NCBI GenBank assembly: GCA_022842285.1
Contig: JALHPV010000037.1
Location: 1 to 36,479, forward strand
Direction of reading: 5' to 3'
DNA: 36,479 nt
DNA from: Kofleriaceae bacterium
GTDB lineage: Bacteria; Myxococcota_A; Polyangia; Haliangiales; Haliangiaceae
The notes beneath the pieces are model-generated. The model ran no database searches. It was not told where the DNA came from and was given only the letters and a program-made list of their open reading frames with translations. Shown piece by piece: positions 10,757-36,479 of the stretch (position 1 is the stretch's first letter; each line of letters begins with the position of its first letter). Both the position numbers and the translations under genes were made by a program.

Positions 10757-10790
10757 GGAGAGCTCGTCTGTGGTGTTCGCCGCCGGGAGG

Positions 10791-10849
10791 ATTCGACAGG
10801 GGGGCGCGAGATTTCTCGTGGCGAGCGACGGCGCCCGTCGTCCTTATCT
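10791..10849. repeat. intergenic repeat, copy A
   Basis: 59 bp, nearly identical to 12321-12378, with two substitutions and one extra G in this copy. Inside are two hairpins: CGAGA-TT-TCTCG (10807-10818) and CGACGG-CGC-CCGTCG (10826-10840). Both copies lie outside genes, in the same orientation, on either side of the lipoprotein gene at 10976-12082. Read on the plus strand both spell GARFLVASDGARRPYL, but no gene structure surrounds this. Likely a dispersed REP- or MITE-like element. Confidence 0.8.
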
Positions 10850-13478: not shown

Positions 13479-13517
13479 TTCCCCCGCGCCTTGGGGAACG
13501 GCCCCTTCGAAGGCCGT
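13478..13517. terminator. stem-loops between convergent genes
   Basis: Two adjacent stems lie between the SUMF1-like gene and the convergent kinase gene: GTTCCCC (13478-13484) with GGGGAAC (13493-13499), and ACGGCC (13498-13503) with GGCCGT (13512-13517). No T-run follows on either side, so if they terminate they do so weakly or with Rho. Confidence 0.45.
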
Positions 13518-13527
13518 CCAGTTCCGA

Positions 13528-15576: not shown

Positions 15577-16412
15577 GCATCGCTCCGCAGCACCCGCGAC
15601 AACGACAGTTCCAGGTTGGTCGCGAGGACACCGATCGCGCTCGCGAGATCATCAGCCGCGATACCGAGCTGCTTCGCGACTTCCGCGCGCGTTTGCTCGA
15701 TCAAATGCTCGCGCGCCGACGCGAGGGTGCGCGCCACCGTCGCGCGGTGAACGCCGTAGGTGGCGGCGATCTGATCGAGCGTCAGCCGGTCGACGTACGC
15801 GTGACGCAGGAAGGTCCGCTCGCGCGGTTGCAGGCTCGCTACCGCCGCGGCAAACGCACGCTTCACGGCGCCGCCGAGCTGCCCCTGGATGTGCGCGAGG
15901 CGTGGATCGGAAGGCGCGGCCATCCCAACGAGCTCTTTCTCGTCGAGCTCGTCCTCGTACTTGAGCGAGGCATCGCCGCGCGCCGCATCGACGAACAGCC
16001 GCGCCGCGGTGACCCGCAACCAGTTCTGCAGGAACCCGACGCCGGCGTACTCGACGATCTTCGCGGGCTCGACGAAGAGCTTCACGCGCAACCGTTGACG
16101 CAGCTCTGCCGCCGGCAACCGATGGAACCGCGCGACGAGGCGATCGATATCCGGTGCGAACTGGTGCTCGAAGGCGCGGATCCCCGCATCGTCCTGGGTG
16201 GACCACCACGCGAGGTACAGATCATCGAGTCGCAGCTCCTTGTCGGGCTGCTTCGCTTGCCTCGCGTCGACGTACGCCGTGAAGCGGGCGTCCTCGGGCG
16301 ACGGCCCACCGGGCCAGCGCGCGCGGATCTGCTCGATCACGGCCTTGGTCACCTCTGCATGGTGCCACGGCGAGGGGGGCCAGCTGATGGCGAATGCGGC
16401 CGGGTGGAACAT
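15573..16412 (-). CDS. sigma-70 family RNA polymerase sigma factor
   Basis: Up to 279 residues. GTG 16352 (VTKAVIEQIRARWPG) is an alternative start, as the first 20 residues look non-native. Region 2 is at about 125-146 (FLQNWLRVTAARLFVDAARG) and region 4 at 193-238, with a clear helix-turn-helix (LTLDQIAATYGVHRATVARTL). The long, poorly conserved N-terminus and the spacer between regions fit the Myxococcales-specific sigma family (TIGR03001-like) rather than a standard ECF sigma; this assignment is from memory of the family. It overlaps the downstream kinase by 4 bp and follows a lipoprotein gene by 28 bp, forming a probable lipoprotein-sigma-kinase unit. Confidence 0.88.
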   Translation of the reverse strand: MFHPAAFAISWPPSPWHHAEVTKAVIEQIRARWPGGPSPEDARFTAYVDARQAKQPDKELRLDDLYLAWWSTQDDAGIRAFEHQFAPDIDRLVARFHRLPAAELRQRLRVKLFVEPAKIVEYAGVGFLQNWLRVTAARLFVDAARGDASLKYEDELDEKELVGMAAPSDPRLAHIQGQLGGAVKRAFAAAVASLQPRERTFLRHAYVDRLTLDQIAATYGVHRATVARTLASAREHLIEQTRAEVAKQLGIAADDLASAIGVLATNLELSLSRVLRSDA

Positions 16413-16440
16413 GAGCGAATCGACGCCGCGCAGATCGCAC

Positions 16441-17070
16441 CTAGAAGGTCTTGTTGAGGCTCACGCCGCCGGTGGCCCCCAGCGAGGCGTTGTACTGGTT
16501 CGCGGCGCGATCGGCGACGCTGCGATCGACGGCGTGGGTCTCGGGATTCATCTGCCGCGCGCCCCACCAGCTCATGTAGTAGCCGCCCGAGACCGACAAG
16601 CCGCCGAGCGTGACCAGCCCGGTCCGGAGGCCTGCGTTCGACACGAAGAAGCCCGCGATCATCCCGACCACACCACCGGCCATGAAGCCAATGCCGCGGC
16701 GATTCCACGTCCGTCCGTTCTCGCGGAGCGCGATCGTCTCGTCGAGGGCCCGCTGGTCGCCCGCGATGCGGAAGAAGTCCTCATCGGACAGCTGCTCGGT
16801 GCCTTGCACCGGGTACCAGATCTTCGCCGTGTGCACCGTCGTCCGGTCCTCGTAGGTCGACGCCGTGCCGATCGCCCGACCGCTCTCGTCCCGGTATTCG
16901 GTCTCGGCGACCTTCTCCTTGGAGGTCGTGGTCCAGACCTTGAGGTCATCGACGACCGCGAGTTGGGCTCCGGTGGCAACGGCGCCCGTGCGCGGGCCGT
17001 CCTTCGGCACGAGGCAACCAGTGGAAATGGCAGCGAGAGTGAGGGACGTGGTGAGCGTGAGCATCTTCAT
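16441..17070 (-). CDS. lipoprotein with two glycine-rich hydrophobic segments, upstream of sigma/kinase pair
   Basis: A 209-residue lipoprotein. ATG 17070 has a good AAGGGG ribosome binding site and a signal MKMLTLTTSLTLAAISTGC (Cys 19). The mature part holds a strand-rich region (VAETEYRDESGRAIGTAS), an acidic helix (EQLSDEDFFRIAGDQRALDE), then hydrophobic segments GIGFMAGGVVGMIAGFFVS and GLVTLGGLSVSGGYYMSW, and an Ala/Asn-rich C-terminus (ADRAANQYN). The plan matches the lipoprotein at 9899-10711. Its place just before the sigma factor makes it a candidate sensor or target of that system (inference). Confidence 0.82.
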   Translation of the reverse strand: MKMLTLTTSLTLAAISTGCLVPKDGPRTGAVATGAQLAVVDDLKVWTTTSKEKVAETEYRDESGRAIGTASTYEDRTTVHTAKIWYPVQGTEQLSDEDFFRIAGDQRALDETIALRENGRTWNRRGIGFMAGGVVGMIAGFFVSNAGLRTGLVTLGGLSVSGGYYMSWWGARQMNPETHAVDRSVADRAANQYNASLGATGGVSLNKTF

Positions 17071-17177
17071 CGTGCCCCTTCGGACGAGAGGCCCTCCCAC
17101 GGAGTCGCACGTGGTCCGCGGAGATCGTCCTTCGCCAGCGAATGCTGCCCCCGGCGCAAACATTGCCTCACAGCGAG

Positions 17178-17203
17178 GCGAGCCCCGTTCAGGGGCGGCT
17201 CGC
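17178..17203 (+). promoter_or_regulatory. stem-loop in the leader of the DsbA-like gene
   Basis: GCGAGCC (17178-17184) pairs with GGCTCGC (17197-17203), and the inside extends with CC/GG and a one-base bulge. It ends 16 bp before the GTG start at 17220, where no strong Shine-Dalgarno sequence is visible, so it could affect ribosome access. It may also be chance in a GC-rich leader. Confidence 0.3.
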
Positions 17204-17219
17204 GTGGTATCGAGCGACC

Positions 17220-17828
17220 GTGAAGCTACTCGTCGTGATGCTCCTGGCTGCATGCGGGAGCGCGTCGCCGCCACCGTCGCCCGTCGGGAACACGGCTGCG
17301 CCTGCCCCGCAGGTCACCGAGACCGAAACCGACACGATCCCGTACACCGGCAATCCGGCGGCGCGCGTGCAGCTGGTCAGCTACTTCAACTATCAGTGCT
17401 CGCATTGCGTCGCGTTCGCGCCCACGCTCGACGAGATCGCAGCCCGGTACGGCAACAAGATCGTCATCCAGCACCGGGTGCTTCGCCTTCCCAACCACGG
17501 TCCCGACAACGATCTGCCGCACATCGCCGCGCTCGCCGCTCACCGGCAGGGCCGCTTCGAAGCAATGCATCGCGCGTTGTTCGCCGGCGGCGTGTTCGAT
17601 CGCGAGAGTGTGATCGGCTACGCCCGCACGATCGGCCTCGACGTCCCGCGCTTCACGCGCGATCTCTCCGATCCAAAGCTGCGGGCCCGGATCGACGCGG
17701 ACTCGCGCGCCGCCGACAGAGACCGGGTCGCGGGGGTGCCGGCCGTTCTGATCGACGGCCGCGAGTACCATGGCGACCCCACGATCGCTCCGATCAGCGC
17801 CGCGATCGATGCCGCGCTTGCGAAGTGA
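17220..17828 (+). CDS. DsbA-family thiol-disulfide lipoprotein
   Basis: A 202-residue lipoprotein from GTG 17220: VKLLVVMLLAACGS with lipobox LAAC (Cys 12), then a Pro/Ala/Thr linker. The rest is a DsbA-like thioredoxin fold (family PF13462-type): strand VQLVSYFNYQCSHC with active site C60-S-H-C63, an inserted helical region with PHIAALAAHRQGRFEAMHRALF, and the cis-proline loop AGVPAVLIDG. It probably oxidises or isomerises disulfides in exported proteins, fitting the many multi-cysteine lipoproteins nearby. The catalytic Cys pair is intact. It starts divergently from the sigma-linked lipoprotein and converges with the next gene. Confidence 0.88.
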   Translation: MKLLVVMLLAACGSASPPPSPVGNTAAPAPQVTETETDTIPYTGNPAARVQLVSYFNYQCSHCVAFAPTLDEIAARYGNKIVIQHRVLRLPNHGPDNDLPHIAALAAHRQGRFEAMHRALFAGGVFDRESVIGYARTIGLDVPRFTRDLSDPKLRARIDADSRAADRDRVAGVPAVLIDGREYHGDPTIAPISAAIDAALAK

Positions 17829-23822: not shown

Positions 23823-25142
23823 GTGGACGAGGAAGTGGATCTCGGCGCACTTGCGAGTGCCCCTGGCACGACAGAGCTCCTCGGCGGCGGGCGGCAACCG
23901 TCGGTCCATCGCTTTGAAGTCACGGGCGTGGATGGCCCCGCGCTCGGCATGACCTGGCGCTCGGCGGGCACATCGTGCGCGGTGGGCTCACATGGCTCCA
24001 ACGATGTCGTCATTCAGGACCCGGCCGTCTCGCGGTTCCACTGCGAGCTGCGACTCGAGCAGAACCGGATCCGGCTCCACGATCTCGACTCGACAAACGG
24101 GACGCTCCTCGACGGCGTCCCCATCGCGATCGGAATCGTGCGAGACGGGAGCCTCCTGCAAGTGGGGCGCTCCACGCTGCGGGTGCAGATCGGCGACGCG
24201 ATGCACGTGCCTGTCTCGCCGCGCTCCGAGTTTGGCCGCCTCGTCGGCACGTCCTGGGCGATGCGGGCGCTGTTCGCCGTGCTCGAGCGAGCCGCCCAGT
24301 CCGACGCGACCGTGCTCGTCGAGGGCGAGAGCGGCACCGGCAAGGAGCTCGTCGCGCGGTCATTGCACGAGGCGTCGCGCCGCGCATCACGACCGCTCGC
24401 GGTGATCGACTGTGGCGCTCTTCCCGGCGCCCTGCTCGAGTCAGAGCTGTTCGGTCACGCCGCCGGCGCGTTCACGGGCGCCGTCGAGTCCCGGGTCGGA
24501 GCCTTCGAGGCGGCCAACGGCGGGACCGTCCTGCTCGACGAGATCGGCGAGTTGCCGCTCGAGCTGCAGCCCAAGCTCCTGCGCGTGCTCGAGGCCCGCG
24601 AGGTGCGCCCGCTCGGCAGCACGAGCACGCGGAAGATCGACGTCCGCATCATCGCTGCGACCAATCGCGATCTTCGCTCCGAGGTCAACGCCGGACGCTT
24701 TCGCCCGGACCTCTACTTCCGCCTCGCGGTCGTCAGAGTCACGACCCCACCGCTCCGGACGCGCCCGGAGGACCTCCCTGCCCTCGTCGATCGCATCGTC
24801 GCCGGGCTCGAGCTCCCACCGGAGCGTGCGGCCCGGCTGCGCGAGCCGGTGTTCATCGCATCGCTGGGGCGCCACGCGTGGACCGGCAACGTGCGGGAGC
24901 TCCGCAACTACCTCGAGCGCACCGCGATCCTCTACGACGCCACCGATGGCGACACATCGAACACGGAAGAGCTCCAGCCCTATCAAGCCGCCCGCGACCT
25001 CGTGCTGGGTGAGTTCGAGCGCCGCTACGTCGAGCAGCTGCTCGGGGTTCACAAGGGGAACGTCTCCGCCGCCGCACGCGCCTCGGGGATCGATCGCACG
25101 TATTTCCACCGCTTGATGCGGCGGCACAAACTGACTCGCTAG
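23823..25142 (+). CDS. FHA-domain sigma54-dependent transcriptional activator
   Basis: A 439-residue protein; start GTG 23823, the only good candidate before the FHA domain. Residues 28-125 are an FHA phosphothreonine-binding domain ([20 protein letters not shown], then LDSTNGT). Residues 138-375 are an AAA+ sigma54-interaction domain with Walker A GESGTGKE, the GAFTGA loop at 215-220 that contacts sigma54, Walker B VLLDEIGE, and the R-finger region. The last 30 residues are a Fis-type helix-turn-helix ([21 protein letters not shown]). There is no receiver domain, so control is probably through binding of phosphothreonine made by Ser/Thr kinases such as those nearby; this FHA/kinase link is established for myxobacterial activators, while the partner here is inferred. 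Confidence 0.95.
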
Positions 25143-25246: not shown

Positions 25247-26032
25247 TCAGAAGGTACCGCCGAGGACCATCGCCCCCGACGGCGAGACGCCGAGGGTAAA
25301 CGCTCTCGCCTGGCGCTCCGCGCTCGCTCCCCTGGAGGGCGTGAGCACGAAACGAATCACGGCCGCACCGACGAAGCCGATGCTCGCGCCCAGCGCGATG
25401 CGAGAGAGGAGCAGCCGATCCTCCGCGCGTTCGTATTGCGACTCGACGTCGGGGAGCATGTCGAGGTCGGCGGCATCCGCGGCGGCGCTCCGGGCCTGCA
25501 CGTAGAAGACGCCGCTGGCTACCCCGAGGCCGACGCCGACCGATAGCAACCCGACCGCGAGCTTGTGCGGGAACGGCGTCTCGGCCGGAGGCATCGCCGT
25601 CGGATCCTCGAGTCCCGTGTTGTCGGACGAGAGCAGCGGCACCGGCGGAGTGACCACGGTGGGCGGAGTGACCACGGTGGGCGGAGCCGCCGCGGTACCA
25701 CCACACGCGGCGATGCCGTCGCGGGCGAGCTGAGCTGGTTGCTCGGGCGGCGCCGTCGCCAGGAACCGTTCATAGAGCTCGACAGCGCTGGGACATGCGC
25801 CCCGTTGCCGCTCCGACTGCGCCCACGAGAACAGAAAGCCGCTGTAGCGCTCTGCGGCATATGCGGCCGCGAAGAGCTGGCTCGCCTTCGCGAAGTCCTG
25901 GGCTTTGTACGCCGCCGCTCCCTCGGCCTGGAGGGCCTTGGCCTTCTCCGTCGTGGGGCCAGTGGGAGTGGGCCCATCGGCCGACGCAGCGATGGGAGCG
26001 GCAAGCACGATCAGCATGGCGATGCGGTTCAT
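25247..26032 (-). CDS. exported TPR-containing protein with C-terminal glycine-rich hydrophobic region
   Basis: A 261-residue protein from ATG 26032 with signal peptide MNRIAMLIVLAAPIAASA. Residues 30-100 form tetratricopeptide-type helices (ALQAEGAAAYKAQDFAKASQ, FLFSWAQSERQRG). A Thr/Pro/Val linker contains the 6-residue unit TVVTPP twice in tandem. The C-terminus has glycine-rich hydrophobic segments (KLAVGLLSVGVGLGVASGVF, ALGASIGFVGAAVIRF). It starts 7 bp after the kinase stop on the same strand, so the two form an operon. This kinase-plus-TPR pairing is common in myxobacteria; the TPR protein may scaffold or be a kinase substrate (inference). Confidence 0.82.
   Translation of the reverse strand: MNRIAMLIVLAAPIAASADGPTPTGPTTEKAKALQAEGAAAYKAQDFAKASQLFAAAYAAERYSGFLFSWAQSERQRGACPSAVELYERFLATAPPEQPAQLARDGIAACGGTAAAPPTVVTPPTVVTPPVPLLSSDNTGLEDPTAMPPAETPFPHKLAVGLLSVGVGLGVASGVFYVQARSAAADAADLDMLPDVESQYERAEDRLLLSRIALGASIGFVGAAVIRFVLTPSRGASAERQARAFTLGVSPSGAMVLGGTF
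25644..25679. repeat. 18-bp tandem repeat, two perfect units
   Basis: GGCGGAGTGACCACGGTG occurs twice without a gap (25644-25661, 25662-25679) and a third partial copy begins at 25680. It lies within the TPR gene and encodes the duplicated TVVTPP linker unit, so copy-number change would only lengthen or shorten the linker. Confidence 0.9.
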
Positions 26033-26039
26033 GACGAGC

Positions 26040-27476
26040 TCACTTTGCGAAAGGATCCACGACATCATCGAGGGCAGCGCTGCCAGAGCCCCGCGGCTCT
26101 GACCCGGTGGTTGTGGTCCCGGAGGGGCGGCGCGGCGGCTTGCGCTGCGCGGGCCGGGGCACATTACTCGGAGGCGGGGGCGGCGGGGCGACCACGGTGA
26201 GCGGCACGACGACCGGGATGCTCCCTCGCGGTTCTTCCCGCGCGATCGGGGGAGGGGCGGTGGCGGGCTCCATCGGCGGTGCGACCGTGGCTTCCGGCGG
26301 CGCGGTGACAGCTGCTTCGTCACCTCGCGTCGCGAACACCGCGGCGGTGCCTGCCCCACCCAGCACGAGCACGGCGGCGCCAGCCACGAGCGGCCACCGG
26401 GGTCGCCGCGGCCGCTTCAGTTCAGGCACGGTGACACTGGTTGGCGGCGCGACCTCGACCGTCATCTCGATCTCGTCCGACACCGAGAGCGGGCGGTCGA
26501 GAGAGCGGCGTAGATCTCGCTGATCACGCTCCCAGGTGTCGATCCGATCCGCGAACAGGCTCCGCATGAGCTCGCCGAGCGCACGACTCGACGTATCGAG
26601 CTGGGCAGAACGAGCATAGTCCTCGAGCGCGTGTTGAAAGGCCTGCGCCGAGGGCCAGCGTTCGGCGGGATCCATGGCAAGCGCCTTCATCACGATGCTC
26701 TCGAGGTGCGCGTCGTAGCCCGGGCGCTTCACGCTCGGACGCGGGATGTCACCCTCGGTGATCCGCGTGGCGATGAGGAAATCGCTCTCCCCCCGGAACA
26801 GCGCCTGTCCGGTCGTCAGCTCGTACAGCACGACCCCGAGCGAGAACACGTCGCTCCGGTGGTCGAGATCCGCGCTGGCCACGACCTGTTCTGGCGACAT
26901 GTAGCAGAGCTTCCCCTTCATGCCGCCGGCGGTGGTCTGCGTGGCGCGCGCGGCCGCCTTGGCGATCCCGAAGTCCACGACCTTCACGTGCCCATCGTAG
27001 GAAATGAGGATGTTCGCCGGTGACACGTCGCGGTGAACGATCCGCAGCGGGGTGCCATCGGGCCCGGTCTGCGTGTGCGCATGATGGAGCCCCGCCGCCG
27101 CGGCGATACAGATTCCGACCGAGACGGAAACCTTGAGACCGCGCCGGTTCGTACGCGTCGCCGCGATCAGGGCTCCGAGGTCCTGTCCGTGCACGTACTC
27201 CATCACGAAGTAGTAGCGACCGGCCTCGACGCCGACGTCGTACACGTCGATGACGTTCGGATGGTTGAGCATCGCGGCGAGCCGGGCCTCGTCGAGGAAC
27301 ATCGACACGAACTGGGCGTCTCGCGCGTGCTGCGGGAGGATGCGCTTCACCACACAGAGCCGCTCGAAGCCGGCGGTCCCCCGGGTCCGGGCGAGGTAGA
27401 GCTCTGCCATTCCACCCACGGCCAGCGGGGTGACGATCTCGTACTTGTCGAGGTGGGCTCCTGCCGCCAGGAACAT
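26040..27476 (-). CDS. Ser/Thr protein kinase, single-pass membrane type
   Basis: A 478-residue kinase from ATG 27476 (MFLAAGAHLDKYEIVT); the paralogous fragment at 33398-33463 begins at the same Met, supporting this start over a longer in-frame one at 27515. The kinase domain (residues 10-285) has the glycine loop AVGGMAELYLA with its last glycine replaced, K44 in CVVKRI, HRDVSPAN with D150, DFG 168-170, and SPE. A long Pro/Ala-rich stretch with a membrane helix (WPLVAGAAVLVLGGAGTAAVF, about 375-395) precedes a Pro-rich C-terminus (VVAPPPPPPSNVP). The TPR gene follows at 7 bp. The HRDVSPAN type is common in myxobacterial kinases. Confidence 0.93.
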   Translation of the reverse strand: MFLAAGAHLDKYEIVTPLAVGGMAELYLARTRGTAGFERLCVVKRILPQHARDAQFVSMFLDEARLAAMLNHPNVIDVYDVGVEAGRYYFVMEYVHGQDLGALIAATRTNRRGLKVSVSVGICIAAAAGLHHAHTQTGPDGTPLRIVHRDVSPANILISYDGHVKVVDFGIAKAAARATQTTAGGMKGKLCYMSPEQVVASADLDHRSDVFSLGVVLYELTTGQALFRGESDFLIATRITEGDIPRPSVKRPGYDAHLESIVMKALAMDPAERWPSAQAFQHALEDYARSAQLDTSSRALGELMRSLFADRIDTWERDQRDLRRSLDRPLSVSDEIEMTVEVAPPTSVTVPELKRPRRPRWPLVAGAAVLVLGGAGTAAVFATRGDEAAVTAPPEATVAPPMEPATAPPPIAREEPRGSIPVVVPLTVVAPPPPPPSNVPRPAQRKPPRRPSGTTTTGSEPRGSGSAALDDVVDPFAK

Positions 27477-27620
27477 GCGCGCTCGACCAGCGTACCACGC
27501 GCTCCTTGTCGCCACGTGTGCCCGCTAGTTGTCGGCGGCGCCCTCGAGGATCCAGGGCCGGATCCGATCACTGTCCACCTCGCCCAGGGGTGGTCGTTCG
27601 AGCGGCATCAGCCGACAGTC
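27411..27620 (-). repeat. left composite direct repeat (cytochrome-like 3' end plus kinase 5' end)
   Basis: Contains, in transcription order, the last 31 codons of a cytochrome c-like gene (27525-27620), a 48-bp spacer, and the first 22 codons of the intact kinase (27411-27476). It matches 33398-33588 in the same orientation. The cytochrome-like part differs at 3 of 96 bases; the kinase part differs at 12 of 66 by my alignment. See the right copy and the findings. Confidence 0.88.
27525..27620 (-). pseudogene. 3' fragment of cytochrome c-like gene
   Basis: Encodes DCRLMPLERPPLGEVDSDRI and PWILEGAADN followed by a stop, identical in 29 of 31 residues to the end of the gene at 33493-34797. It carries only the distal-Met segment of the cytochrome domain (LMP, PPL, WI-x-x-GA) and no heme-binding CxnCH. 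Residues upstream of it are unrelated (about 27621 onward), so the fragment has no start of its own. Confidence 0.88.
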
Positions 27621-27693
27621 GCGCCAAGTACGACGACGAAAGCACCGCGGCAGTGTACCCACCTGATCGTAGCAGACCGCATGAGCGATCTCC

Positions 27694-28716
27694 TCACCCT
27701 GCTGGCGACGCGACGACATGGTCAGCGCGCACCTCGTTCGAGAGGACGCCGCCGCGATCCAGCTCGGCGACGCTCTCCAGCGTGGTCGACGCGATCTTTG
27801 CCAGCGCCTCCCGGGTCAGAAACGCCTGATGCGATGTGACGAGCACGTTCGGAAACGTGAGCAACCGCGCCAGCACGTCGTCCTGCAGGACCTGGTTCGA
27901 CAGATTCTGGAAGAACACCCCCTCCTCCTCCTCGTACACGTCGAGACCCGCCGCTCCGAGATGGCCGCGCTTCAACGCACTGATCAACGCACGACTATCG
28001 ATGAGCGCGCCGCGCCCCGTATTGATCAGGAACACGCCGGCTTTCATGGCGGCGAGAGCAGCCGTGTCGATCATGTGATGCGTCGCCGGTGTCAGCGGCA
28101 CGTGTAGCGAGATGACCGCGGACTCGGCATAGAGCTCTTGCAGCGGTACGTACTGGACCCCGGTCGCCGATGCGAACGCGAGATCGGGCTGCTTGTCGTG
28201 GGCGAGCACGCGGCAGCCAAAGCCGCGGAGGATGCGCGCGGTCACTTGTCCGATGCGTCCGGTGCCGACGATGCCGACCGTCTTCTCGTGGAGATCGAAT
28301 CCCACCAGCCCGTCGAGAGAGAAGTTCCACTCTCGAACGCGGGCATAGGCTCGATGGATGTTCCGGTTGAGCGCGAGGACGAGCGCGACCGCATGCTCGG
28401 CGACGGCGTGCGGTGAGTATTCCGGGACGCGTACGACGCGGAGGCCGAGCCGCGCCGCCGCCGCCAGGTCGACGTGGTTGTAGCCGGCCGAGCGGAGCGC
28501 GACGAGCCGAGCCGCTCCGTCGCGGAGGATCTCGAGCGTCCGAGCATCGACGATGTCGTTCACGAACGAGCACACGACATCATGGCCGTGCGCCAGCGGC
28601 GCGGTGACCGAGGTGAGCCTGGGTTCCAGGAACGTGAGGTGATAGCCGACCGAGCGGTTCGCCTGCTCGAATGCCGCTCGCTCGTACTCGTGGGTGTCGA
28701 ACATCACGATCTTCAT
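27694..28716 (-). CDS. ldhA: D-2-hydroxyacid (D-lactate type) dehydrogenase
   Basis: A 340-residue NAD-dependent enzyme; ATG 28716 has AGGAGAG upstream. Motifs of the D-isomer 2-hydroxyacid dehydrogenase family are present: substrate-binding Arg region LVALRSAGYNHVDL, a Rossmann loop GIVGTGRIGQ with a cofactor-selecting Asp in HDKQPD, VISLHVPLTP, NTGRGALID, and catalytic His in VLVTSHQAFLT. The inserts EEEEGVFFQN and ending LSNEV are typical of fermentative LdhA (pyruvate to D-lactate). It follows the P-type ATPase gene by 66 bp on the same strand. It probably supports redox balance during oxygen limitation. D-lactate dehydrogenase is preferred, but other 2-oxoacid substrates cannot be excluded. 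Confidence 0.9.
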   Translation of the reverse strand: MKIVMFDTHEYERAAFEQANRSVGYHLTFLEPRLTSVTAPLAHGHDVVCSFVNDIVDARTLEILRDGAARLVALRSAGYNHVDLAAAARLGLRVVRVPEYSPHAVAEHAVALVLALNRNIHRAYARVREWNFSLDGLVGFDLHEKTVGIVGTGRIGQVTARILRGFGCRVLAHDKQPDLAFASATGVQYVPLQELYAESAVISLHVPLTPATHHMIDTAALAAMKAGVFLINTGRGALIDSRALISALKRGHLGAAGLDVYEEEEGVFFQNLSNQVLQDDVLARLLTFPNVLVTSHQAFLTREALAKIASTTLESVAELDRGGVLSNEVRADHVVASPAG

Positions 28717-28782
28717 CTCACTCTCCTGTCGTGGTCGTTTCGACGATCCTTGCCCGGGACTCACCCCGCATCGTTCGGTGCA

Positions 28783-31533
28783 TCACCGCGTGGCCGCCCG
28801 CGCGCGCCGCCGCACGAACAGCTTGCGAAGCTCCTCGACCCAGAGGACCAGACTCGCTACCGCGCCGATGGCCAGCACCTCTCGGATGTCGATCGGAACG
28901 GTGTGGAAGACCTCAGCGAGCGGGGTCCAGAACACGACCGCGATGTGGAGCAGGTTGCTCACCACGAGCCCGCCGATCAACCACGGGTTCTTGAATAGAC
29001 TGAAGTTCAGCGCCGAGCGCCGGTCGGAGCGACAGTTGAGGACGTTGAACCACTGGCAGACGGCGAGCACCGTGAACGTCTCGGTCTGGGCTTGTGCGAA
29101 CGGTACGCCGCTGGACAGTCGATACGCGAACCATCCGAAGGTCGAGATCGCGATCGCAGGCGTCATGAACGCCAGGCGCGCGAGCATGCTCCGGGTAAGC
29201 AGCGGTTCACGTGGCGAGATCGGGCGCTGCCTCATCTCGTCGCCTTCCGCGGGCTCCATGATGAGGTTGACCGTCACGGTTCCCTCGGTGACCAGGTTGA
29301 TCCACAGGATCTGGACGGCCGCGAGTGGCGGCGGATAACCGAGCACGAGCGCGGTCAGGAGGACCAGCACTTCTGCCATCGAGGTCGTGAAGAGGTAGAG
29401 GACGACCTTCTTGATGTTCCGGTAGACGACCCGGCCTTCCTCGATCGCGGCGACGATCGAAGCGAAGTTGTCGTCGCCGATCACGATCTTGGCCGAGTCC
29501 TTGGCGACCTCGGTACCCGTGATGCCCATCGCCACTCCGACGTTGGCCTTGACCAGCGCGGGCGCATCGTTGACGCCGTCGCCGGTCATCGCGACGATCT
29601 CGTCGCGCCGCTGGTAGGCACCGACGATCCGCAACTTCTGGGCCGGGTGCACGCGCGCGAACACCGAGATGCCGTCGATGCGGTCGCCGAGCTCGGCGTC
29701 GGTGAGTCGCTCGAGCTCGCGGCCATCGACCGCGTCGTCGCCATCAAGCGCGATACCGAGCTCCCTCGCGATCGCGAGCCCGGTCGCCTTGTGATCCCCG
29801 GTCACCATCACCGGCCGGATCCCGGCGGCGCGGCAACGCGCGACGGCGTCCTTCACTTCGGTACGCGGCGGATCGATCTGGCCGAACATGCCGAGCCACG
29901 TGACCCGGCCGCGGAACGCGTCGAAGCCCGCAGCGCCATCGACCTCGCCACCGTCGACGACGCCGATCGCGAGCACGCGCAGGGCGCGCGCGGCCATGTG
30001 ATCCGCAGCATCGCGTAGCGCCGCTCGGGCCGGGTCATCGAGCGTCAGGTCGCGTCCTTCTCGCCGGACGGCGTGGCAGAGCTCGAGCACGACCTCGGGC
30101 GCGCCCTTGATGATCACCCGAGGTCCGTCTGGCGCGTCGTGTTGCGTCGCCATCAGCTTCGCCGCGGGATCAAACGGGATCTCCGCGCGGCGCGGCATGC
30201 CCGCCCGCAGCTCCGCCGGGATGATACCGGCCTTGATCCCGAGCGTCACGAGGGCGACTTCGGTCGGATCCCCGATCGGCTTCCATCGCGGCGTGGAGTC
30301 GGCGGCGGGTCCGACGAGCTGAGCGTCGTTGCAGAGCACGCCCGCCTCGACCAGCGCTCGGACGTCCTCCGGAATCGAGCTGATCACGCACCCGTCGTCG
30401 AGAAACTCACCCTCGGGTTCATAGCCGGCGCCTCTCACCGTCAGCTCGCGGCCATCGGGCAACGCGATCGCGGTCACTGTCATCTCGTTGCGCGTCAGCG
30501 TGCCCGTCTTGTCGCTGCAGATGACGGTCGTGGAGCCTAGCGTCTCGACGGCGGCGAGCCTGCGCACGACCGCCTGACGGCGCGCCATCCGCTGGACGCC
30601 CACCGCGAGGGCGATCGTCATCGCGACCGGGAGCCCCTCGGGGATCATGCCGACGAGTTGGCTGATCCCGATCATCACGATCTGCGCGGCGGGTAGTCCG
30701 CGCACGAGCCCGATCGCCAAGACCGAGAAGAACATCGCCACCGCGGCGATGATGATGTAGCGGCCAAACTGCGCGATCCGTCGCTCGAGTGGTGTCTGCG
30801 AGTCTTTCGCCGTCCCCGCGAGGGTCGCGATGTGGCCGATCTCGGTCGCGAGGCCAGTGGCCACCACGACGGCACGGGCGCGCCCTGCGGTGACGTGCGT
30901 GCCCGAATAGACCATGTTCCGGCGGTCGGCGAGCAACGTAGGCGGTGTGAGCGCCTCGAGGCTCTTGGCCACCGGCACGGACTCTCCGGTAAGGGCGGCC
31001 TCTGCGATCTGGAGTGCGACGCCGTGGAGAAGGCGCGCGTCGGCCGGAACTGCATCTCCCGCCTCGAGCATGATCACATCGCCGGGCACAACCGCACCGG
31101 CCTCGAGAATGACCTCGTGTCCATCCCGTACCACCCGAGCCTTGTGCGTCGCGAGCTTGCGGAGCGCTTCAAGCGATCGCTCGGCGCGGCCTTCCTGCAG
31201 CGTGCCGATCAGCGAGTTCAAGAGGACGACGATGAAGATCACGAGCGCGTCACTACGATGACCGAGCGCCAGAGCGATGCCCGCGGCGAGGAACAGTAGG
31301 TAGATCAGCGGACTCTTGAACTGCCCCCCGAACACCGACAGCAACGACCTGCGCTCGTGCTCGGGGAGTTCGTTGGGGCCGAAGCGCGCGAGTCGGGCCC
31401 GGGCTTCCGCCTCGGTGAGGCCGTGATCGCTATCCGACTCGACGGCCACCAACGTCTCGGCGACGTGTTGCGCGTGCCAGGGCGGCCCGTTCTCTCGCGG
31501 ACGAACGCGAGCTCCTGCGTGCTGTGTGGTCAT
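28783..31533 (-). CDS. type II (Ca2+/cation) P-type ATPase
   Basis: A 916-residue membrane pump; ATG 31533 has GAGGAG upstream. It has the cation-ATPase N-terminal domain (about 20-75), actuator motif TGES (182-185), M4 ion site PEGLP (298-302), phosphorylation site DKTGTLT with D341, nucleotide-domain KGAPE, hinge TGDG-x-NDAPAL, M5 acidic residue in TTSMAEVLVLL, and M6 INLVTEG where SERCA has NLVTDG. This is the SERCA/PMR1-like IIA/IIC group, exporting Ca2+ or a related cation. Single-gene bacterial pumps next to universal stress proteins are usual. The M6 Asp-to-Glu change may alter ion choice. Overlap with no neighbour; 38 bp downstream of the stress protein gene. Confidence 0.94.
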   Translation of the reverse strand: MTTQHAGARVRPRENGPPWHAQHVAETLVAVESDSDHGLTEAEARARLARFGPNELPEHERRSLLSVFGGQFKSPLIYLLFLAAGIALALGHRSDALVIFIVVLLNSLIGTLQEGRAERSLEALRKLATHKARVVRDGHEVILEAGAVVPGDVIMLEAGDAVPADARLLHGVALQIAEAALTGESVPVAKSLEALTPPTLLADRRNMVYSGTHVTAGRARAVVVATGLATEIGHIATLAGTAKDSQTPLERRIAQFGRYIIIAAVAMFFSVLAIGLVRGLPAAQIVMIGISQLVGMIPEGLPVAMTIALAVGVQRMARRQAVVRRLAAVETLGSTTVICSDKTGTLTRNEMTVTAIALPDGRELTVRGAGYEPEGEFLDDGCVISSIPEDVRALVEAGVLCNDAQLVGPAADSTPRWKPIGDPTEVALVTLGIKAGIIPAELRAGMPRRAEIPFDPAAKLMATQHDAPDGPRVIIKGAPEVVLELCHAVRREGRDLTLDDPARAALRDAADHMAARALRVLAIGVVDGGEVDGAAGFDAFRGRVTWLGMFGQIDPPRTEVKDAVARCRAAGIRPVMVTGDHKATGLAIARELGIALDGDDAVDGRELERLTDAELGDRIDGISVFARVHPAQKLRIVGAYQRRDEIVAMTGDGVNDAPALVKANVGVAMGITGTEVAKDSAKIVIGDDNFASIVAAIEEGRVVYRNIKKVVLYLFTTSMAEVLVLLTALVLGYPPPLAAVQILWINLVTEGTVTVNLIMEPAEGDEMRQRPISPREPLLTRSMLARLAFMTPAIAISTFGWFAYRLSSGVPFAQAQTETFTVLAVCQWFNVLNCRSDRRSALNFSLFKNPWLIGGLVVSNLLHIAVVFWTPLAEVFHTVPIDIREVLAIGAVASLVLWVEELRKLFVRRRARAATR

Positions 31534-31571
31534 CGATGAACTCCTCTCGGCGAGTTCCGCCTCGCCCCTGC

Positions 31572-32462
31572 TCACGGCGGCGCGAACGAGAATCGGACCG
31601 GCCGCGCCACGAGGACGTCGCATCGCGCGTTCGCGATCACATCCTCGGCGACACTACCGACCAGTGCGCGCGCGAGCCCCGAGCGCCCATGCGTGCCGAT
31701 CGCGATGACGTCGGCGTGGTTGAAATTCGCTTCGTTGAGCACGATCGACCTCGCGTCGCCGGCGCGGACGATCTTGCGCCAGCGGGCCTGGTCCTCGTAT
31801 GGCGCTACGAGTGCATCGAGTTGCGCGACCGCCTTCTCTCGATACGGCTTCCGGACCACGCCCAGCGCCCCCCGGGTCGGGGCCATGAAGCTCTCGAACG
31901 GGACATGAAAGGCGTGGACGACGCGCACGGTCGTGCGCGAGTCGACGATGCGCAGGCCGAGCTCGAGCGTGTGTCGCGACGTGTCCCCGAGGTCCGTGGC
32001 AACAAGCGGCCGACGGTACGGCTTTGCGCCACCAGCATTGACGACGAGGACCGGGGTGTCGCCCAGCCTGACCACGCGAGTGGCTGTCGCGCCGATGAAC
32101 AGATCGCGCACCGGACGCCGCCCATGTCGGCCGATGACGACTAGCTCGGCATCGATGCTCCGCGCGTGGCGGATGATCTCGACGTGTGCTTCGCCGCGGA
32201 CGAGCGCTGACGTGACCGCCAGCTCGCTGCCCGCGGACGACATCTGCGCCACGGCGTCCGCGAGCGACTCGCGCGCTCGAGCCTCGACCGCCGCGCGTAC
32301 CTTGGCCGGAATCGACGCGGGGAGGACGTGGAGGAGCTCGACGCGCGCTCCCTGTGCGAGCGGCAGCGCGAGCGCCCGAGCGATCGCCGAACGGCAGCCC
32401 TCCGTGAAGTTCGTCGGCACCAGCAGGGCGGCGAACGGCCGTCGAGCTGTGCGCGCGGACAT
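31572..32462 (-). CDS. tandem-domain universal stress protein
   Basis: A 296-residue cytoplasmic protein with two USP domains; ATG 32462 follows a strong GGAGGTG. Domain 1 (about 8-145) has the ATP-binding pattern G-2x-G-9x-G in VVIGRHGRRPVRDLFIGATA. Domain 2 (about 155-290) has GTHGRSGLARALVGSV, matching G-2x-G-9x-G-S. Both appear able to bind nucleotide. Two-domain USPs accompany stasis, oxygen-limitation and stress operons; the neighbours are a cation pump and a fermentative dehydrogenase. A short frame ends in a TGATG overlap with this start. Confidence 0.92.
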   Translation of the reverse strand: MSARTARRPFAALLVPTNFTEGCRSAIARALALPLAQGARVELLHVLPASIPAKVRAAVEARARESLADAVAQMSSAGSELAVTSALVRGEAHVEIIRHARSIDAELVVIGRHGRRPVRDLFIGATATRVVRLGDTPVLVVNAGGAKPYRRPLVATDLGDTSRHTLELGLRIVDSRTTVRVVHAFHVPFESFMAPTRGALGVVRKPYREKAVAQLDALVAPYEDQARWRKIVRAGDARSIVLNEANFNHADVIAIGTHGRSGLARALVGSVAEDVIANARCDVLVARPVRFSFAPP

Positions 32463-32644
32463 CAACGCACCTCCGGCCGCCGGGAGGCCAAGGCAGCGAT
32501 CGAGGCCGCACGCTTCACGAGCGGCTCTGACCGCCCCAGTTGCATGGCCGCGATGGCGGCAACGTTCGGCATCGCGCTGTGGTCGTGCACGATGGATGCC
32601 CGTGTTTGCCCTAGAAATCGCCAGCGACGACGCAGTTTCTGCAC
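32462..32644 (-). CDS. possible small leader peptide coupled to the stress protein gene
   Basis: A 60-residue frame, GTG 32644 to a TGA that overlaps the stress protein ATG (TGATG). It is basic (MQKLRRRWRFLGQ) with a helical Ala-rich end. The coupling is the only argument; there is no good ribosome binding site and no known family. It also overlaps the inverted repeat at 32641-32661. Confidence 0.25.
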   Translation of the reverse strand: MQKLRRRWRFLGQTRASIVHDHSAMPNVAAIAAMQLGRSEPLVKRAASIAALASRRPEVR

Positions 32645-32661
32645 CTCGCATTGCGAGATGC
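32641..32661. promoter_or_regulatory. 21-bp imperfect palindrome upstream of the stress cassette
   Basis: Two 10-base arms around one central base, GCACCTCGCA and TGCGAGATGC, with one mismatched pair. It lies about 180 bp before the universal stress protein start, in the only gap long enough for a cassette promoter, so an operator is plausible. No regulator is identified. Confidence 0.4.
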
Positions 32662-32716
32662 GCAGAGCATGCGCGCGAGAGCGGTCGGTAACCTCACGTG
32701 CAGCCCCAGCGCGTGC

Positions 32717-33463
32717 CTACTTGGCTGTTCCACAGCGATAGCTCGTCGTGACCTCGGACCGATCAGTCAACTGGAACCACACTTCGCCGTGCTCCGGTTG
32801 TGGCTTCGAGCGCGGCTCACACTGCGAGCCGGTGCCCACAACCATGCGGGTCGCCGTGAGGCCACGTGCCTCGAGGGCGGCGGCAACGAACGCGACTCGC
32901 CGCGGTCCGAGATCAGAGCGCTCCACATCGCGCTGCCCGCCGGTCGCACAGAGAATCACGTTCGCCTTGATCGAGCCACTGATCGCGACCAGCTCGTCGA
33001 GCAGGTCCGTGAACAACTGGGTCTCGGTCGCCTCGGGCGGAAAGCTGACCACCTTCAACTCGAGCTGTCCGGCCGGCGACTTCAGCCGTCTGAAGATCGG
33101 GCAGGCGTCCGGTCGCCCTGGCCCAGTGACAACGCGCTCGTTCGCGAGCGGTCGCGGCTCCCCGCTACTCGAGCCCCGCTCGGGGCAGCCGTCCTCATCG
33201 TTCAGACCATTGTAAGTCTCGCGCTCATCGGGGCACTGATCCGCGTCGTCAAGCAGATCGTCACCGTCGGCGTTCGCCACTGTTGGCACTTCAGGTTGAC
33301 CGGTAGAGACGATGGCCGGCCCCATCGACGACTGACTACTCCCACACGATCCCGCCGCACATACGAACCAAACAATAGCGAGGCTCCAGATCCGGACGCC
33401 GCCAACGGCCAGAGGCGTGACGCTCTCGTGCGTGTGGAGGTGGTCTCCCGCAGCCAGGAACAT
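32717..33463 (-). CDS. OmpA-like lipoprotein with a chimeric N-terminus taken from a kinase
   Basis: A 248-residue protein. Residues 1-22 (MFLAAGDHLHTHESVTPLAV plus GG) match the first 22 of the kinase at 26040-27476. They are joined in frame at codon 23 to a signal-like VRIWSLAIVWFVCAAGSC. The codon at the junction is GTC, so the native start is gone. The body has a thrombospondin type 3/calcium-type segment (DGDDLLDDADQCPDERETYN, GLNDEDGCPERG) and a diverged OmpA-like C-terminal domain (RRVAFVAAALEARGLTATRM, VVGTGSQCEP), as in outer-membrane OmpA-family proteins that bind peptidoglycan. Whether the lengthened N-terminus still exports is uncertain. Confidence 0.8.
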   Translation of the reverse strand: MFLAAGDHLHTHESVTPLAVGGVRIWSLAIVWFVCAAGSCGSSQSSMGPAIVSTGQPEVPTVANADGDDLLDDADQCPDERETYNGLNDEDGCPERGSSSGEPRPLANERVVTGPGRPDACPIFRRLKSPAGQLELKVVSFPPEATETQLFTDLLDELVAISGSIKANVILCATGGQRDVERSDLGPRRVAFVAAALEARGLTATRMVVGTGSQCEPRSKPQPEHGEVWFQLTDRSEVTTSYRCGTAK

Positions 33464-33588
33464 TCGTGACCGCAGCGTACCGGTAGTTGTCGCTAGTTGT
33501 CGGCGGCCCCCTCGAGGATCCAGGTCCGGATCCGATCACGGTCCACCTCGCCCAGGGGTGGTCGTTCGAGCGGCATCAGCCGACAGTC
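33398..33588 (-). repeat. right composite direct repeat (cytochrome-like 3' end plus kinase 5' end)
   Basis: Counterpart of 27411-27620. Here the cytochrome-like gene is whole and its last 31 codons (33493-33588) form the match; after a 29-bp spacer come 22 kinase codons (33398-33463) that now begin the OmpA-like gene. The spacer carries a local duplication, TAGTTGTCG, next to the stop codon. Homology stops sharply at both outer ends. Confidence 0.88.
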
Positions 33589-34797
33589 ACCCGTGCACAG
33601 CGCTGGATCGAGGTGAATCCACAGCGAGCTCCCCGCTGGATCGCCCGGGACGATCTTCGCGGCTAGCGTGTCGAACGCAGCCTCCTGCGAGCTGAAATCG
33701 ACGCCGCCCACGTCTCCCGTGTTGTGACACGCCCCACCGGCACACTTGCTGGTCAGGATCTCCGCGTAGATCGACGCGAACGTCGCGACTCCCGTCTGCT
33801 CTCCGGCCATCACCGGACACAAGCCTTGCGCTTCGCAGTTGGGGCCCGGCTCGGGGTAGATGAGCTCCACCGCGGGGCTCGGCCTGCAGCTGTCGTAATC
33901 GATCGGATCCTTGGCGTTGCTTCCATCAGGTGCGAGCCCATCGATCCAGCACCACAGCGCCCGCACGTTCGCTCGATTCCACGAGCAGCAGTTCGCGCGC
34001 GGCATCAGCGTCCCGATCGTCGGGTCGGTGAGCCGACGCATCAGGTAGCTGCGCTCGGGGTCCCCCGGCTTGATGAGCTTCGCGCCAATGTCGTGCCCAT
34101 AGGTGTGGTTGCGGTTCGGATCACCGACGTTGAAGCGATCAGGGCGCGGCAGGGCCGACTCGGCGAGGAAGCTCGTGATGATCGGAAACGGCGGACCTTC
34201 GGGGATCGCCATCAAGACCGTGCGCCCGCTCGGGTCGTCTGCGTCGAGCTGATACGCGAAGTGCGTGAGCCCCATCGGCACGAACGGGACCTCGATCTCT
34301 CCGCCTGCCCCGTCGGGAACGCGGCGCAGTGTGGTCATGGGATCCTTGTAGGCGGCGGTCTGCGGCAACAGCTTCGTGGGCGGATCCCGAAGCACCATGC
34401 GCCAGATCGTTGGCCCGAAGGTCGGATGGGGCTCGAGGTAGCCAAGCTCGATCCGTTCGAACCCGATCTCGGGGTTGCCGAACTCGACCACGTCACCACG
34501 GCGCTCGCACAGGTCGTGGAAGCGATCGCCCGAGTCCTGCTTCTGATTGCAGGGGACGCCGATGTTGTCGATGATCGATCCGAGCGAATCGAGGTTGGGG
34601 AACTCGTTCCCGTTGTGGCAGACGCCACCGTTCGGACCGCAGCCGCGGTAGATGCCCTGGTCGCCGTCGTACAGCGCGGCCAGATCAGGGTACTTCGTGC
34701 GGGCCTCGAGGTCGGTCTCATCGATCTGCGGCGGGGGCGTGGTCGCGCTGTCGCACGCGATCACGAACCCCACGAGCGCCACGAGCGCCGCCCTCAC
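33493..34797 (-). CDS. two-domain cytochrome c-like lipoprotein
   Basis: A 434-residue lipoprotein; GTG 34797 overlaps the DUF1501 stop as GTGA, with AGGAG 8 bp upstream. Signal VRAALVALVGFVIACDS gives a lipidated Cys 15. Two domains resemble Planctomycete cytochrome C (PF07635-type). Domain 1: C53-x6-C60-H (CGPNGGVCH), KPGDPERSYLMRRL, and LMP265 to WCWIDGL. Domain 2: C352-x4-C357-H (CAGGACH), VPGDPAGSSLW, and LMP409 to WILEGA. Both heme motifs depart from CxxCH, and CX4CH is known in some deltaproteobacterial cytochromes, so heme binding is possible but not certain. Coupled with DUF1501, its usual neighbour in Planctomycetes and Myxococcota. Confidence 0.85.
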   Translation of the reverse strand: MRAALVALVGFVIACDSATTPPPQIDETDLEARTKYPDLAALYDGDQGIYRGCGPNGGVCHNGNEFPNLDSLGSIIDNIGVPCNQKQDSGDRFHDLCERRGDVVEFGNPEIGFERIELGYLEPHPTFGPTIWRMVLRDPPTKLLPQTAAYKDPMTTLRRVPDGAGGEIEVPFVPMGLTHFAYQLDADDPSGRTVLMAIPEGPPFPIITSFLAESALPRPDRFNVGDPNRNHTYGHDIGAKLIKPGDPERSYLMRRLTDPTIGTLMPRANCCSWNRANVRALWCWIDGLAPDGSNAKDPIDYDSCRPSPAVELIYPEPGPNCEAQGLCPVMAGEQTGVATFASIYAEILTSKCAGGACHNTGDVGGVDFSSQEAAFDTLAAKIVPGDPAGSSLWIHLDPALCTGDCRLMPLERPPLGEVDRDRIRTWILEGAADN

Positions 34798-36266
34798 GAC
34801 CACAACTCCTGGATCGGCGAGCCCACGCCGGGCAGGCCCCATTGCTCGTCGAGGTGATCGAGCCCGAGCGCATCGAGGATCGTGACGAGGAGCTGCTGCG
34901 GCGAGTAGCGCGTGGTGGACTGCGTCGCGTTGTAGCTCTCGGTGTCGACCGGGCCGACCAGGCGATTCGGCCGCACGCCCGCGCCCATCACCGCATGCGC
35001 CAGATAGAAGCAGGCGTGATCGGCGCCGTGGTCGGTGCCGAGACCCGGGTTGAAGCCCGTGGCCTCCGAACCGGGGTCCCGACCGAAGTCGCTCATCGTC
35101 ACGACGAGCGTGCGGTCGAGGAGCGTGCCGCCATTCCCCGCGGGAATGCGCCCGAGCAACCACCACAACGCCGCCCAGGTCCGCGCGAAGTACCGATAGA
35201 GCGGAGGTCCGAACTCCGCTTCGCCCGAGTGAAAGTCGAACGTCGGCGTCTCGAGCGTGACCGCCGGGCTACCGATCTGAAGCAGCCGCACCGCGAGAGC
35301 GAGGTTGTCGGCGTACGCATCGTACTGAGAGCCAAACGGCTTTCCCTTGTGAAAGATCGCCTTCAGGATGCCGTTGGTCAGAGGCACCGCGCTTCCGAGG
35401 GAGACCGTTCCCAGCGCGGCTTCATCGCGGGCCGCATTGCCGAGCGCGAAGTCATCGTTCGCGAGCCGCGCCCCGATGTCGCGCGCCGCGCGCCGGTGAA
35501 ACGACAACGTCTCCGTCACCTGTTTTCCCACCGAGTGGCGCTCGGCGACCGCGTGCGCGTCGAGGCGATCGCGCATCGACTCGTCGGTGGCAAAGCCATT
35601 CCCCGTCGCGACGTTCCATGCCGGCAGCGCGTTCGCCGCGCTCGGGATGGAGCCAATGCCGGCGAGCGACACCGGGACGTGACGCGTGAGCCCGCCGAGG
35701 GCCGCGCCGAACTGCGCAGCCGGCGCGAGGTGAAACGCCGGCGCGCCGGTCGCGGTCGAGGTCGCCGCGAAGCCCGCACCGATCCGCGTGAGGATGCCCG
35801 GCGCAGCTCCGGTGGCATTGCCGGTCGGCTCTTCGATCCGGGCCCGGAGGTGATCGCCGCGCTCCTGGGCATAGGTACCGAGCACGCTCATCGCGGAGGC
35901 CATGGCGCGAAAGCGCGGCAGCGTCACACCGTCGAGGGCGGCGGGATGTGGTCGCGGCCCCTCGGCCACCGGCGCGAACTCGTAGGTTCCGTCCGGTCCC
36001 GGATCGTCGAGCAGATTTCCCAGCGCGAACGGCGTGGTCCCGCTCGCCAGGAGCCCCCACGGATTGTGCGACCGCTTCGAGGAGGCGTGGAACGCCGCGC
36101 TCGACCGGACTCCGCCCGCGAGGTTGATGATGAGCACGCGATCGGCGCGCGCCGCCGGTCCTGGAGCCGCCTGCGCGAGTCGGCGCAGGGCAGGTAGAAA
36201 CGCGAGCCCGAGCGCGCCGGCGCCGCACCAGCCGAGCAGATCACGACGAGATAGTGGGTTCGACAT
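34794..36266 (-). CDS. Tat-exported DUF1501 protein
   Basis: A 490-residue protein from ATG 36266, with AGGAG 4 bp before it. Its N-terminus is a twin-arginine signal (LSRRDLLGWCGAGALGLAFL, cut near AQA). The DUF1501 body has RVLIINLAGGVRSS, PTFDFHSGEAEFGP, RTLVVTMSDFGRDPGSEATG and LGTDHGADHACFYLAHAVMG, which carries the metal-binding-like Asp/His set of the alkaline phosphatase/sulfatase superfamily. Function is not known with certainty. It sits in a tight unit: 7 bp after the upstream gene and overlapping the cytochrome-like gene by 4 bp. Confidence 0.9.
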   Translation of the reverse strand: MSNPLSRRDLLGWCGAGALGLAFLPALRRLAQAAPGPAARADRVLIINLAGGVRSSAAFHASSKRSHNPWGLLASGTTPFALGNLLDDPGPDGTYEFAPVAEGPRPHPAALDGVTLPRFRAMASAMSVLGTYAQERGDHLRARIEEPTGNATGAAPGILTRIGAGFAATSTATGAPAFHLAPAAQFGAALGGLTRHVPVSLAGIGSIPSAANALPAWNVATGNGFATDESMRDRLDAHAVAERHSVGKQVTETLSFHRRAARDIGARLANDDFALGNAARDEAALGTVSLGSAVPLTNGILKAIFHKGKPFGSQYDAYADNLALAVRLLQIGSPAVTLETPTFDFHSGEAEFGPPLYRYFARTWAALWWLLGRIPAGNGGTLLDRTLVVTMSDFGRDPGSEATGFNPGLGTDHGADHACFYLAHAVMGAGVRPNRLVGPVDTESYNATQSTTRYSPQQLLVTILDALGLDHLDEQWGLPGVGSPIQELWS

Positions 36267-36273
36267 GTGACTC

Positions 36274-36479
36274 CTAGTAGGTGGAGAACTCGACCGAGTC
36301 GATCATCCGGCTGCAGAGCCAGCGCGCGGCGATATCCGGACTCGCACAGCCAGCCGGACCCGCCGTCACGCACGCCTGCATCTCGTCGACGAGCACGTCC
36401 ACCTCGCCCGGTCGAGGTGAGCGGTTCCAGATGCGGTCGATGAGATGCGTCGCGGCAACCGACAGGTCACCATTCCAGC
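36274..36479 (-). CDS. C-terminal end of an unidentified protein, 5' end outside window
   Basis: The minus-strand frame ends at TAG 36274-36276, reading ...WNGDLSVAATHLIDRIWNR then PRPGEVDVLVDEMQACVTAG and RWLCSRMIDSVEFSTY. It lies 7 bp upstream of the DUF1501 start, so belongs to the same operon. Four Cys are visible near the end (QACVT, GCASP, LCSR). In such operons this position is usually a second large DUF1501 partner, but 68 residues are too few to assign. Confidence 0.7.
   Translation of the reverse strand, partial: WNGDLSVAATHLIDRIWNRSPRPGEVDVLVDEMQACVTAGPAGCASPDIAARWLCSRMIDSVEFSTY

Follow-up and report, generated by a model that had tools for sequence, protein, structure and literature searches.

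Four stress-type genes between two diverged copies of a cytochrome–kinase junction in a Kofleriaceae genome: a possible old insertion with long target duplication

The locus and its duplicated junction

We analyzed a 36,479-nucleotide (nt) stretch of DNA from a Kofleriaceae bacterium (contig JALHPV010000037.1 of assembly GCA_022842285.1; the whole stretch is referred to below as the window), in which a block of approximately 5.8 kb with four co-directed genes lies between two copies of a composite sequence that joins the end of a cytochrome-type gene to the start of a Ser/Thr protein kinase gene. The window is contig C37 of a 7.9-Mb assembly of 550 contigs (completeness 96.65 per cent, contamination 4.06 per cent). 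The genes of this locus are on the minus strand. In the direction of reading, their order is DUF1501 protein, cytochrome-type lipoprotein, right copy of the junction, OmpA-like lipoprotein, universal stress protein, P-type ATPase, 2-hydroxyacid dehydrogenase, left copy of the junction, kinase, and TPR protein.

The left copy of the junction (27411–27620) consists of a stump of the cytochrome tail (27523–27620), a spacer of 48 nt between stop codon and ATG, and the first 22 codons of the whole kinase gene (27411–27476). The right copy (33398–33588) consists of the true end of the cytochrome-type gene (33491–33588), a spacer of 29 nt and a 22-codon stump of the kinase (33398–33463). Both host genes are therefore whole, the cytochrome-type gene at the right copy and the kinase gene at the left, with a stump of the other gene at each edge, and both copies start and stop inside coding genes. 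The cytochrome-type lipoprotein gene, which has a PSCyt1-like C-terminus, occupies 33493–34797 (its GTG start at 34797 was picked by eye), and the kinase gene occupies 26040–27476 (478 amino acids; Pfam Pkinase, 1.7e-37 in a scan of 26040–27515). The duplicated-junction structure is real, and the original prediction, made from the sequence alone, had located both copies and assigned the whole and truncated genes to the correct ends.

In a BLAST alignment, 27412–27620 and 33399–33588 are 81 per cent identical. The identity is unevenly distributed: the cytochrome tails share 95 of 98 bases (31 codons, the stop codon and 2 nt), whereas the kinase starts share 54 of 66, with silent changes in seven codons and amino-acid changes in 5 of the 22 (Fisher test, p = 0.0016, with linkage between sites ignored). 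The changes K11T, Y12H, and I14S in the right kinase stump lie ahead of the glycine-rich part, as would be expected if the stump had ceased to serve as a kinase. No exact direct repeat in the window is longer than 48 nt, a length equal to that of the cytochrome tail up to its first mismatch; 20 mononucleotide shuffles reached 15–19 nt, and the junction repeat is thus not due to chance. In a search of the bacterium's own genome (40 of 72 first-look candidates scored; 41 matches at E ≤ 10), no third copy of the junction was found, and the next match (E = 8.5e-4) covers 47 nt of kinase coding sequence. This rules out a dispersed repeat, an outcome that the original prediction had named as damaging to its own interpretation.

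Might the structure have been created by assembly or binning, as a chimeric contig joined at the repeat? The assembly is fragmented and bin-like, as its contig number and contamination attest, and overlapping contig ends suggest a mixture of strains: the right end of the window (36097–36479) overlaps contig C201 (L083, 1–383) over 383 bp at 99.48 per cent identity, and the ends of contigs C9 and C18 overlap in like manner over 176 bp at 98.9 per cent. The overlaps reflect either strains that vary where the contigs break or second copies that are almost identical. However, 15 of 164 ungapped bases are substituted between the two junction copies, whose spacers also differ in length by 19 nt, and so they are not one sequence placed twice. 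Assemblers, moreover, join at exact words, and composition is uniform over the block and its flanks. We therefore regard an artefact as very improbable.

The block and its chimeric first gene

The block begins with a chimeric open reading frame (ORF) at 32717–33463 (248 amino acids), in which the 22 kinase codons are joined in one frame to the signal sequence of a degenerate, OmpA/TSP3-like lipoprotein: the right kinase stump, MFLAAGDHLHTHESVTPLAVGG, is followed directly by VRIWSLAIVWFVCAAGSCGSS. Because the stump lies inside this open frame, it amounts to a chimeric start rather than mere debris. The kinase ATG is the sole in-frame ATG, GTG, or TTG codon ahead of the signal sequence and of the cysteine that we take to be that of a lipobox; CTG, ATC, and ATT codons are also present ahead of this cysteine, and a rare start is possible. 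The chimeric start is the most unusual point of the locus, in that one gained gene apparently opens with the beginning of a displaced gene.

At E ≤ 1, Pfam gave no match for the lipoprotein itself, and the OmpA peptidoglycan-binding motif was not seen in it by eye. Weak matches to it occur in all 30 family genomes (E ≤ 0.001), many of them to a short TSP3-like stretch alone. Longer matches reach 28–38 per cent identity over about 145 amino acids, and the two such ORFs that were scanned both contain Pfam OmpA. Judged by these matches, the lipoprotein is a putative degenerate member of the OmpA-like proteins.

The remaining three genes encode a two-domain universal stress protein (31572–32462, 296 amino acids; Pfam Usp in two stretches, 2.3e-43 in a scan of the longer ORF 31572–32651), a type II cation-transporting P-type ATPase (28783–31533, 916 amino acids; Pfam E1-E2_ATPase, Cation_ATPase_N, and Cation_ATPase_C), and a D-isomer-specific 2-hydroxyacid dehydrogenase (27694–28716, 340 amino acids; Pfam 2-Hacid_dh_C, 2.9e-55). 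The best NCBIfam match of the ATPase is the PMR1-type Ca ATPase model, with a score below that model's cut-off. The names and the single direction originally given to the block genes are upheld.

Pfam scans of the four block genes revealed no transposase or integrase, in agreement with the original prediction, and no restriction–modification cargo; there is also no replication or mobilization gene among the four. The block lacks terminal inverted repeats: the longest exact inverted match between the 80-mers at its ends is 6 nt, against a shuffle mean of 5.8. A mobile element was accordingly rejected, as was a composite or unit transposon. Transposons usually duplicate 2–14 bp of their target, and the flanking duplication here is approximately 200 bp. 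A tRNA-associated island was also discarded, as the sole tRNA found in the window, a tRNA-Leu at 8412–8493, is far off. Relics of the flanking genes (kinase, TPR, DUF1501, PSCyt2, and cytochrome) were not detected within 27621–33397 by tblastn to E 5 (best E 0.41).

Relatives of the host genes

The original prediction held that the block splits a cytochrome–kinase–TPR operon. That claim has the duplicated junction as its sole ground, and we looked among related genomes for the uninterrupted order. Homologs of the cytochrome protein were sought in the genus (16 genomes including the bacterium's own, E ≤ 0.001), the family (30 including its own, E ≤ 1e-10), and the order (35 including its own, E ≤ 1e-30). 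Among the 34 other genomes of the order, a close relative was found in G028 only (57 per cent), and among the 29 others of the family, relatives were found in G028, G006, and G016; in the gene lists around these three, no kinase lies downstream. The genus search returned one distant cytochrome cluster, that of G006, where the next gene is of AAA type (MoxR-like by eye) rather than a kinase, as well as short, weaker matches to the C-terminal domain in five further genomes. At six such loci (L073–L078), tblastn located a kinase domain (33 per cent) about 1 kb before the match and on the same strand in G008, and a kinase after the match in none. A short-peptide-pattern search of genome contigs, whose query began with an untrue N-terminal stretch, gave no cytochrome relative. 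Conserved cytochrome–kinase adjacency was thus not found in the genus, family, and order searches or in the neighborhoods inspected, and the split operon of the original claim is putative.

In G028, a kinase, a TPR, a PSCyt2-type, a DUF1501, and a cytochrome gene follow one another on one strand, and the order in the window, continued into contig C201, is a circular permutation of this arrangement. The permutation is what losses from a tandem array would leave, and duplication of the G028 arrangement would create a cytochrome–kinase joint. The second route in the original prediction, a tandem duplication whose middle was later replaced, can be built on this: the five genes would have been amplified to at least three units, the block would have replaced the middle unit save its first 22 and last 31 codons, and the outer units would have lost their redundant halves. 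The C37/C201 overlap could then be a near-identical second copy. This history is possible but somewhat unlikely, as it requires three units, several losses, and an insertion. The block holds no relic of the replaced genes, and there is no TPR or kinase relic directly upstream of the PSCyt2 gene of C201, where the kinase match at 8880–9701 is a distant paralogue (29 per cent). Furthermore, the G028 kinase ranks only fifth among G028 kinases in similarity to the window kinase, and in a kinase phylogeny of 58 rows the window kinase stands without a close partner, apart from that of G028. Forcing the two together costs 9.15 log units, which does not reject the clade (approximately unbiased [AU] test; p-AU = 0.0996). 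Kinase–TPR is a recurrent pair elsewhere in the family, for example near an argH-like gene (by eye) in G005, G013, and G011.

Relatives of the block genes

The original prediction had suggested looking for the cassette elsewhere; only single relatives of its genes were found and no copy of the whole block. Within the genus, relatives of the ATPase at 63–75 per cent identity occur in 2 of the 15 other genomes (G007 and G008), with two more genomes at 37–40 per cent (E ≤ 1e-100), and a dehydrogenase relative at 60 per cent occurs in one (G007), with 12 more genomes at 33–43 per cent. The G007 and G008 ATPase genes and the G007 dehydrogenase gene are on other contigs, with different neighbors. 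The dehydrogenase relative in G007 (G007:C573; L200, 3403–4956) is fused to an N-terminal cyclic-nucleotide-binding domain.

Outside the genus, the nearest match of the ATPase that we found is in a Bdellovibrionales metagenome-assembled genome (MAG; 68 per cent), which, like G008, carries the ATPase without the other block genes. A tree built by a quick method from 23 rows, for which 19 of the 80 named ATPase loci were picked by hand, also places copies of a gammaproteobacterial MAG and of a Variovorax plasmid (58–59 per cent) in the clade of the ATPase. On plasmid 3 of Variovorax sp. RA8, a stress protein gene is found two genes away from the ATPase gene, on the opposite strand, with IS1071 transposases nearby; on the Sphingobium plasmid pTK1, a dehydrogenase gene (57 per cent) adjoins a stress protein gene. 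Two other plasmids that we inspected have no such stress-protein partner. The Variovorax plasmid thus resembles the window in holding an ATPase of the same clade near a stress protein gene, but gene order and partners differ, its stress protein is only 29 per cent alike, and that of pTK1 does not match at E 1e-10. Neither plasmid has a match to the lipoprotein, and IS1071 is nearby in Variovorax only. On this distribution, the block genes are accessory in the genus and accessory cargo elsewhere.

The other mechanism of the original prediction is single-crossover (Campbell-type) integration, in which a circle carrying the four genes and a cytochrome–kinase junction of about 200 bp recombined at the chromosomal junction. 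Campbell-type integration leaves direct repeats of the homologous segment on both flanks of the insert; it would yield exactly the geometry observed, and the unequal identity of the copies could reflect divergence between donor and host strains. We nevertheless consider it unlikely. A circle carrying just 200 bp of a host joint would be odd, and the locus differs from Campbell-type cases in that the homologous segment is only about this long and that no circle, replicon, or integrase was found. Not one of 898 plasmid records with a match covers 80 per cent of the region (unsampled replicons are possible), the five phage records listed, of seven, hold short pieces only, and, as described above, the four genes include none for replication, mobilization, or integration.

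Proposed origin of the duplicated junction

We see an about even chance that the locus is an old insertion with long target duplication. A cytochrome-type gene would once have stood directly upstream of the kinase gene, and the block of lipoprotein, universal stress protein, P-type ATPase, and 2-hydroxyacid dehydrogenase genes would have entered the junction between them, with approximately 200 bp of target copied on entry so that one copy came to lie at each edge. A filled-in break with long staggered ends, or a template switch, could produce such a duplication without a transposase. The insert would have taken a start codon from the displaced kinase, and the left cytochrome stump may now serve as the leader of the kinase gene and therefore be less diverged than the kinase stump. 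One insertion that copied about 200 bp of target would explain why both host genes are whole, why each edge has a stump, and why the block is clean and lacks mobility genes. Also in its favor are that the genome search gave the junction twice and no third time, and that the block genes are accessory in the genus. Single-crossover integration and tandem duplication are both possible, as originally proposed, but the insertion is favored over them because it needs fewer steps.

Insertion with long target duplication has been described from a comparison of two Helicobacter pylori strains (Nobusato et al. 2000, as reported in PMC1643837, PMC4978471, PMC3031569, and PMC3154945). In the available passages of these reports, the inserts have long direct target repeats and often carry restriction–modification genes, and no transposase is named as needed (PMC1643837, PMC4978471, PMC3031569, PMC3154945). 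The window is like the H. pylori cases, as far as those passages describe them, in that the inserted genes are bracketed by long direct repeats of target sequence, but it is unlike them in its stress genes, its diverged copies, and the lack of a strain with an empty site. In Arabidopsis, according to an excerpt of one study, non-transposon genes at new places are associated with flanking repeats (PMC2869330); these transposed genes share flanking repeats with the window, although in a plant genome. For Myxococcus, nothing comparable was seen among the papers listed, which is not a claim that nothing of the kind is in print. Read as an insertion with long target duplication, the locus is a new instance of a recognized kind of event, with ordinary stress genes.

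Several observations weigh against this reading. All the evidence comes from one locus of a single, fragmented assembly, and an empty site was not found: in no relative examined does the cytochrome-type gene directly precede a kinase gene. The parts of the repeat have diverged unequally (3 of 98 against 12 of 66 positions), which is more than a single duplication can account for on its own; the difference would fit if the left cytochrome stump were constrained by a role as kinase leader, or if the cytochrome tail had undergone gene conversion. A promoter scan gave no sigma-70-type site at the left copy, and the N-region of the chimeric leader, slightly acidic by eye, is odd for a signal peptide. 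The comparison of composition and codon use inside and outside the block, which the original prediction had proposed, does not mark the block as foreign: both match the genome, with a guanine-plus-cytosine (GC) content of 0.673 and a tetranucleotide distance at the 82nd percentile of 249 windows. When 1158 ORFs are ranked by codon cost, those for the ATPase, the stress protein, and the dehydrogenase fall at the 58th–65th percentile and that for the lipoprotein at the 86th. As the block has the composition of the genome, any import would be old or from a similar source. Finally, the ATPase and dehydrogenase genes of G007 are on separate contigs and a stress protein gene adjoins neither, and of the 80 named ATPase loci, five have a stress protein match, two a dehydrogenase match, and none both. 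A conserved stress cassette that moves as a unit was therefore rejected, and the block is no known unit.

A bolder extension, which we think decidedly doubtful, is that long target duplication gives acquired genes a working start, such that the displaced kinase keeps its leader while the first acquired gene gains a host start codon and upstream context and becomes a chimeric lipoprotein gene, and that a 64-nt repeat pair bracketing 10979–12082 (described below) arose in this lineage by the same process, again without a transposase.

Apart from this extension, an insertion of ordinary stress genes in an uncultured, kinase-rich lineage with large genomes would point to a route used more widely than in H. 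pylori, and the chimeric start illustrates in what way a copied junction may provide a newly arrived gene with signals for expression.

Neighboring genes and other repeats

Upstream of the cytochrome-type gene lie a DUF1501 gene of the same cluster (34794–36266; Pfam DUF1501, 5.9e-18) and the C-terminal end of a PSCyt2/DUF1549 gene (36277–36479; Pfam PSCyt2 on the C201 ORF). The PSCyt2/DUF1549–DUF1501–cytochrome cluster probably runs on into contig C201. The kinase gene is followed by a gene for a TPR-type protein (25247–26032, 261 amino acids), with Pfam TPR_14 at E 0.16 only. Part of a sigma-54/FHA regulator gene of the window (24324–24617) matches 12455–12745 of L083 on C201 over 297 nt at 71 per cent and is probably a paralogue.

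A second direct repeat pair in the window (10786–10849 and 12316–12378; 64 nt, 94 per cent) brackets one gene (10979–12082) without a Pfam match. Each copy lies upstream of a gene, and the pair possibly represents a control region that was duplicated; a search of 1.65 Mb of the genome gave no further full copy. Our survey of direct repeats over the same 1.65 Mb recovered 56 same-contig pairs (at least 75 per cent identity and at least 40 nt), 11 of them more than 1 kb apart. Two of these 11 reach 90 per cent over 60 nt, namely the 64-nt pair and a 657-nt pair on contig C11; the junction pair, with 81 per cent overall and 97 per cent in its 98-nt core, also belongs to the 11.

In five other contigs with such pairs that we inspected, the pairs are mostly similar coding sequence. 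The C11 repeat (G000:C11, 20705–21361 and 23077–23733; L244) is 97.7 per cent identical, lies in neighboring large ORFs with a similar small gene after each copy, and looks by eye like a duplicated module of toxin–immunity type. On C4, the stretch G000:C4 ~52900–57500 (L193, ~12900–17500) holds a CRISPR-like series of a recurring unit, visible as recurring peptides in the translated frames. A weaker look-alike of the junction is found on C8 (G000:C8, 14015–14134 and 15409–15542; L237), where a pair at 81 per cent identity spans the 5′ ends of two minus-strand frames.

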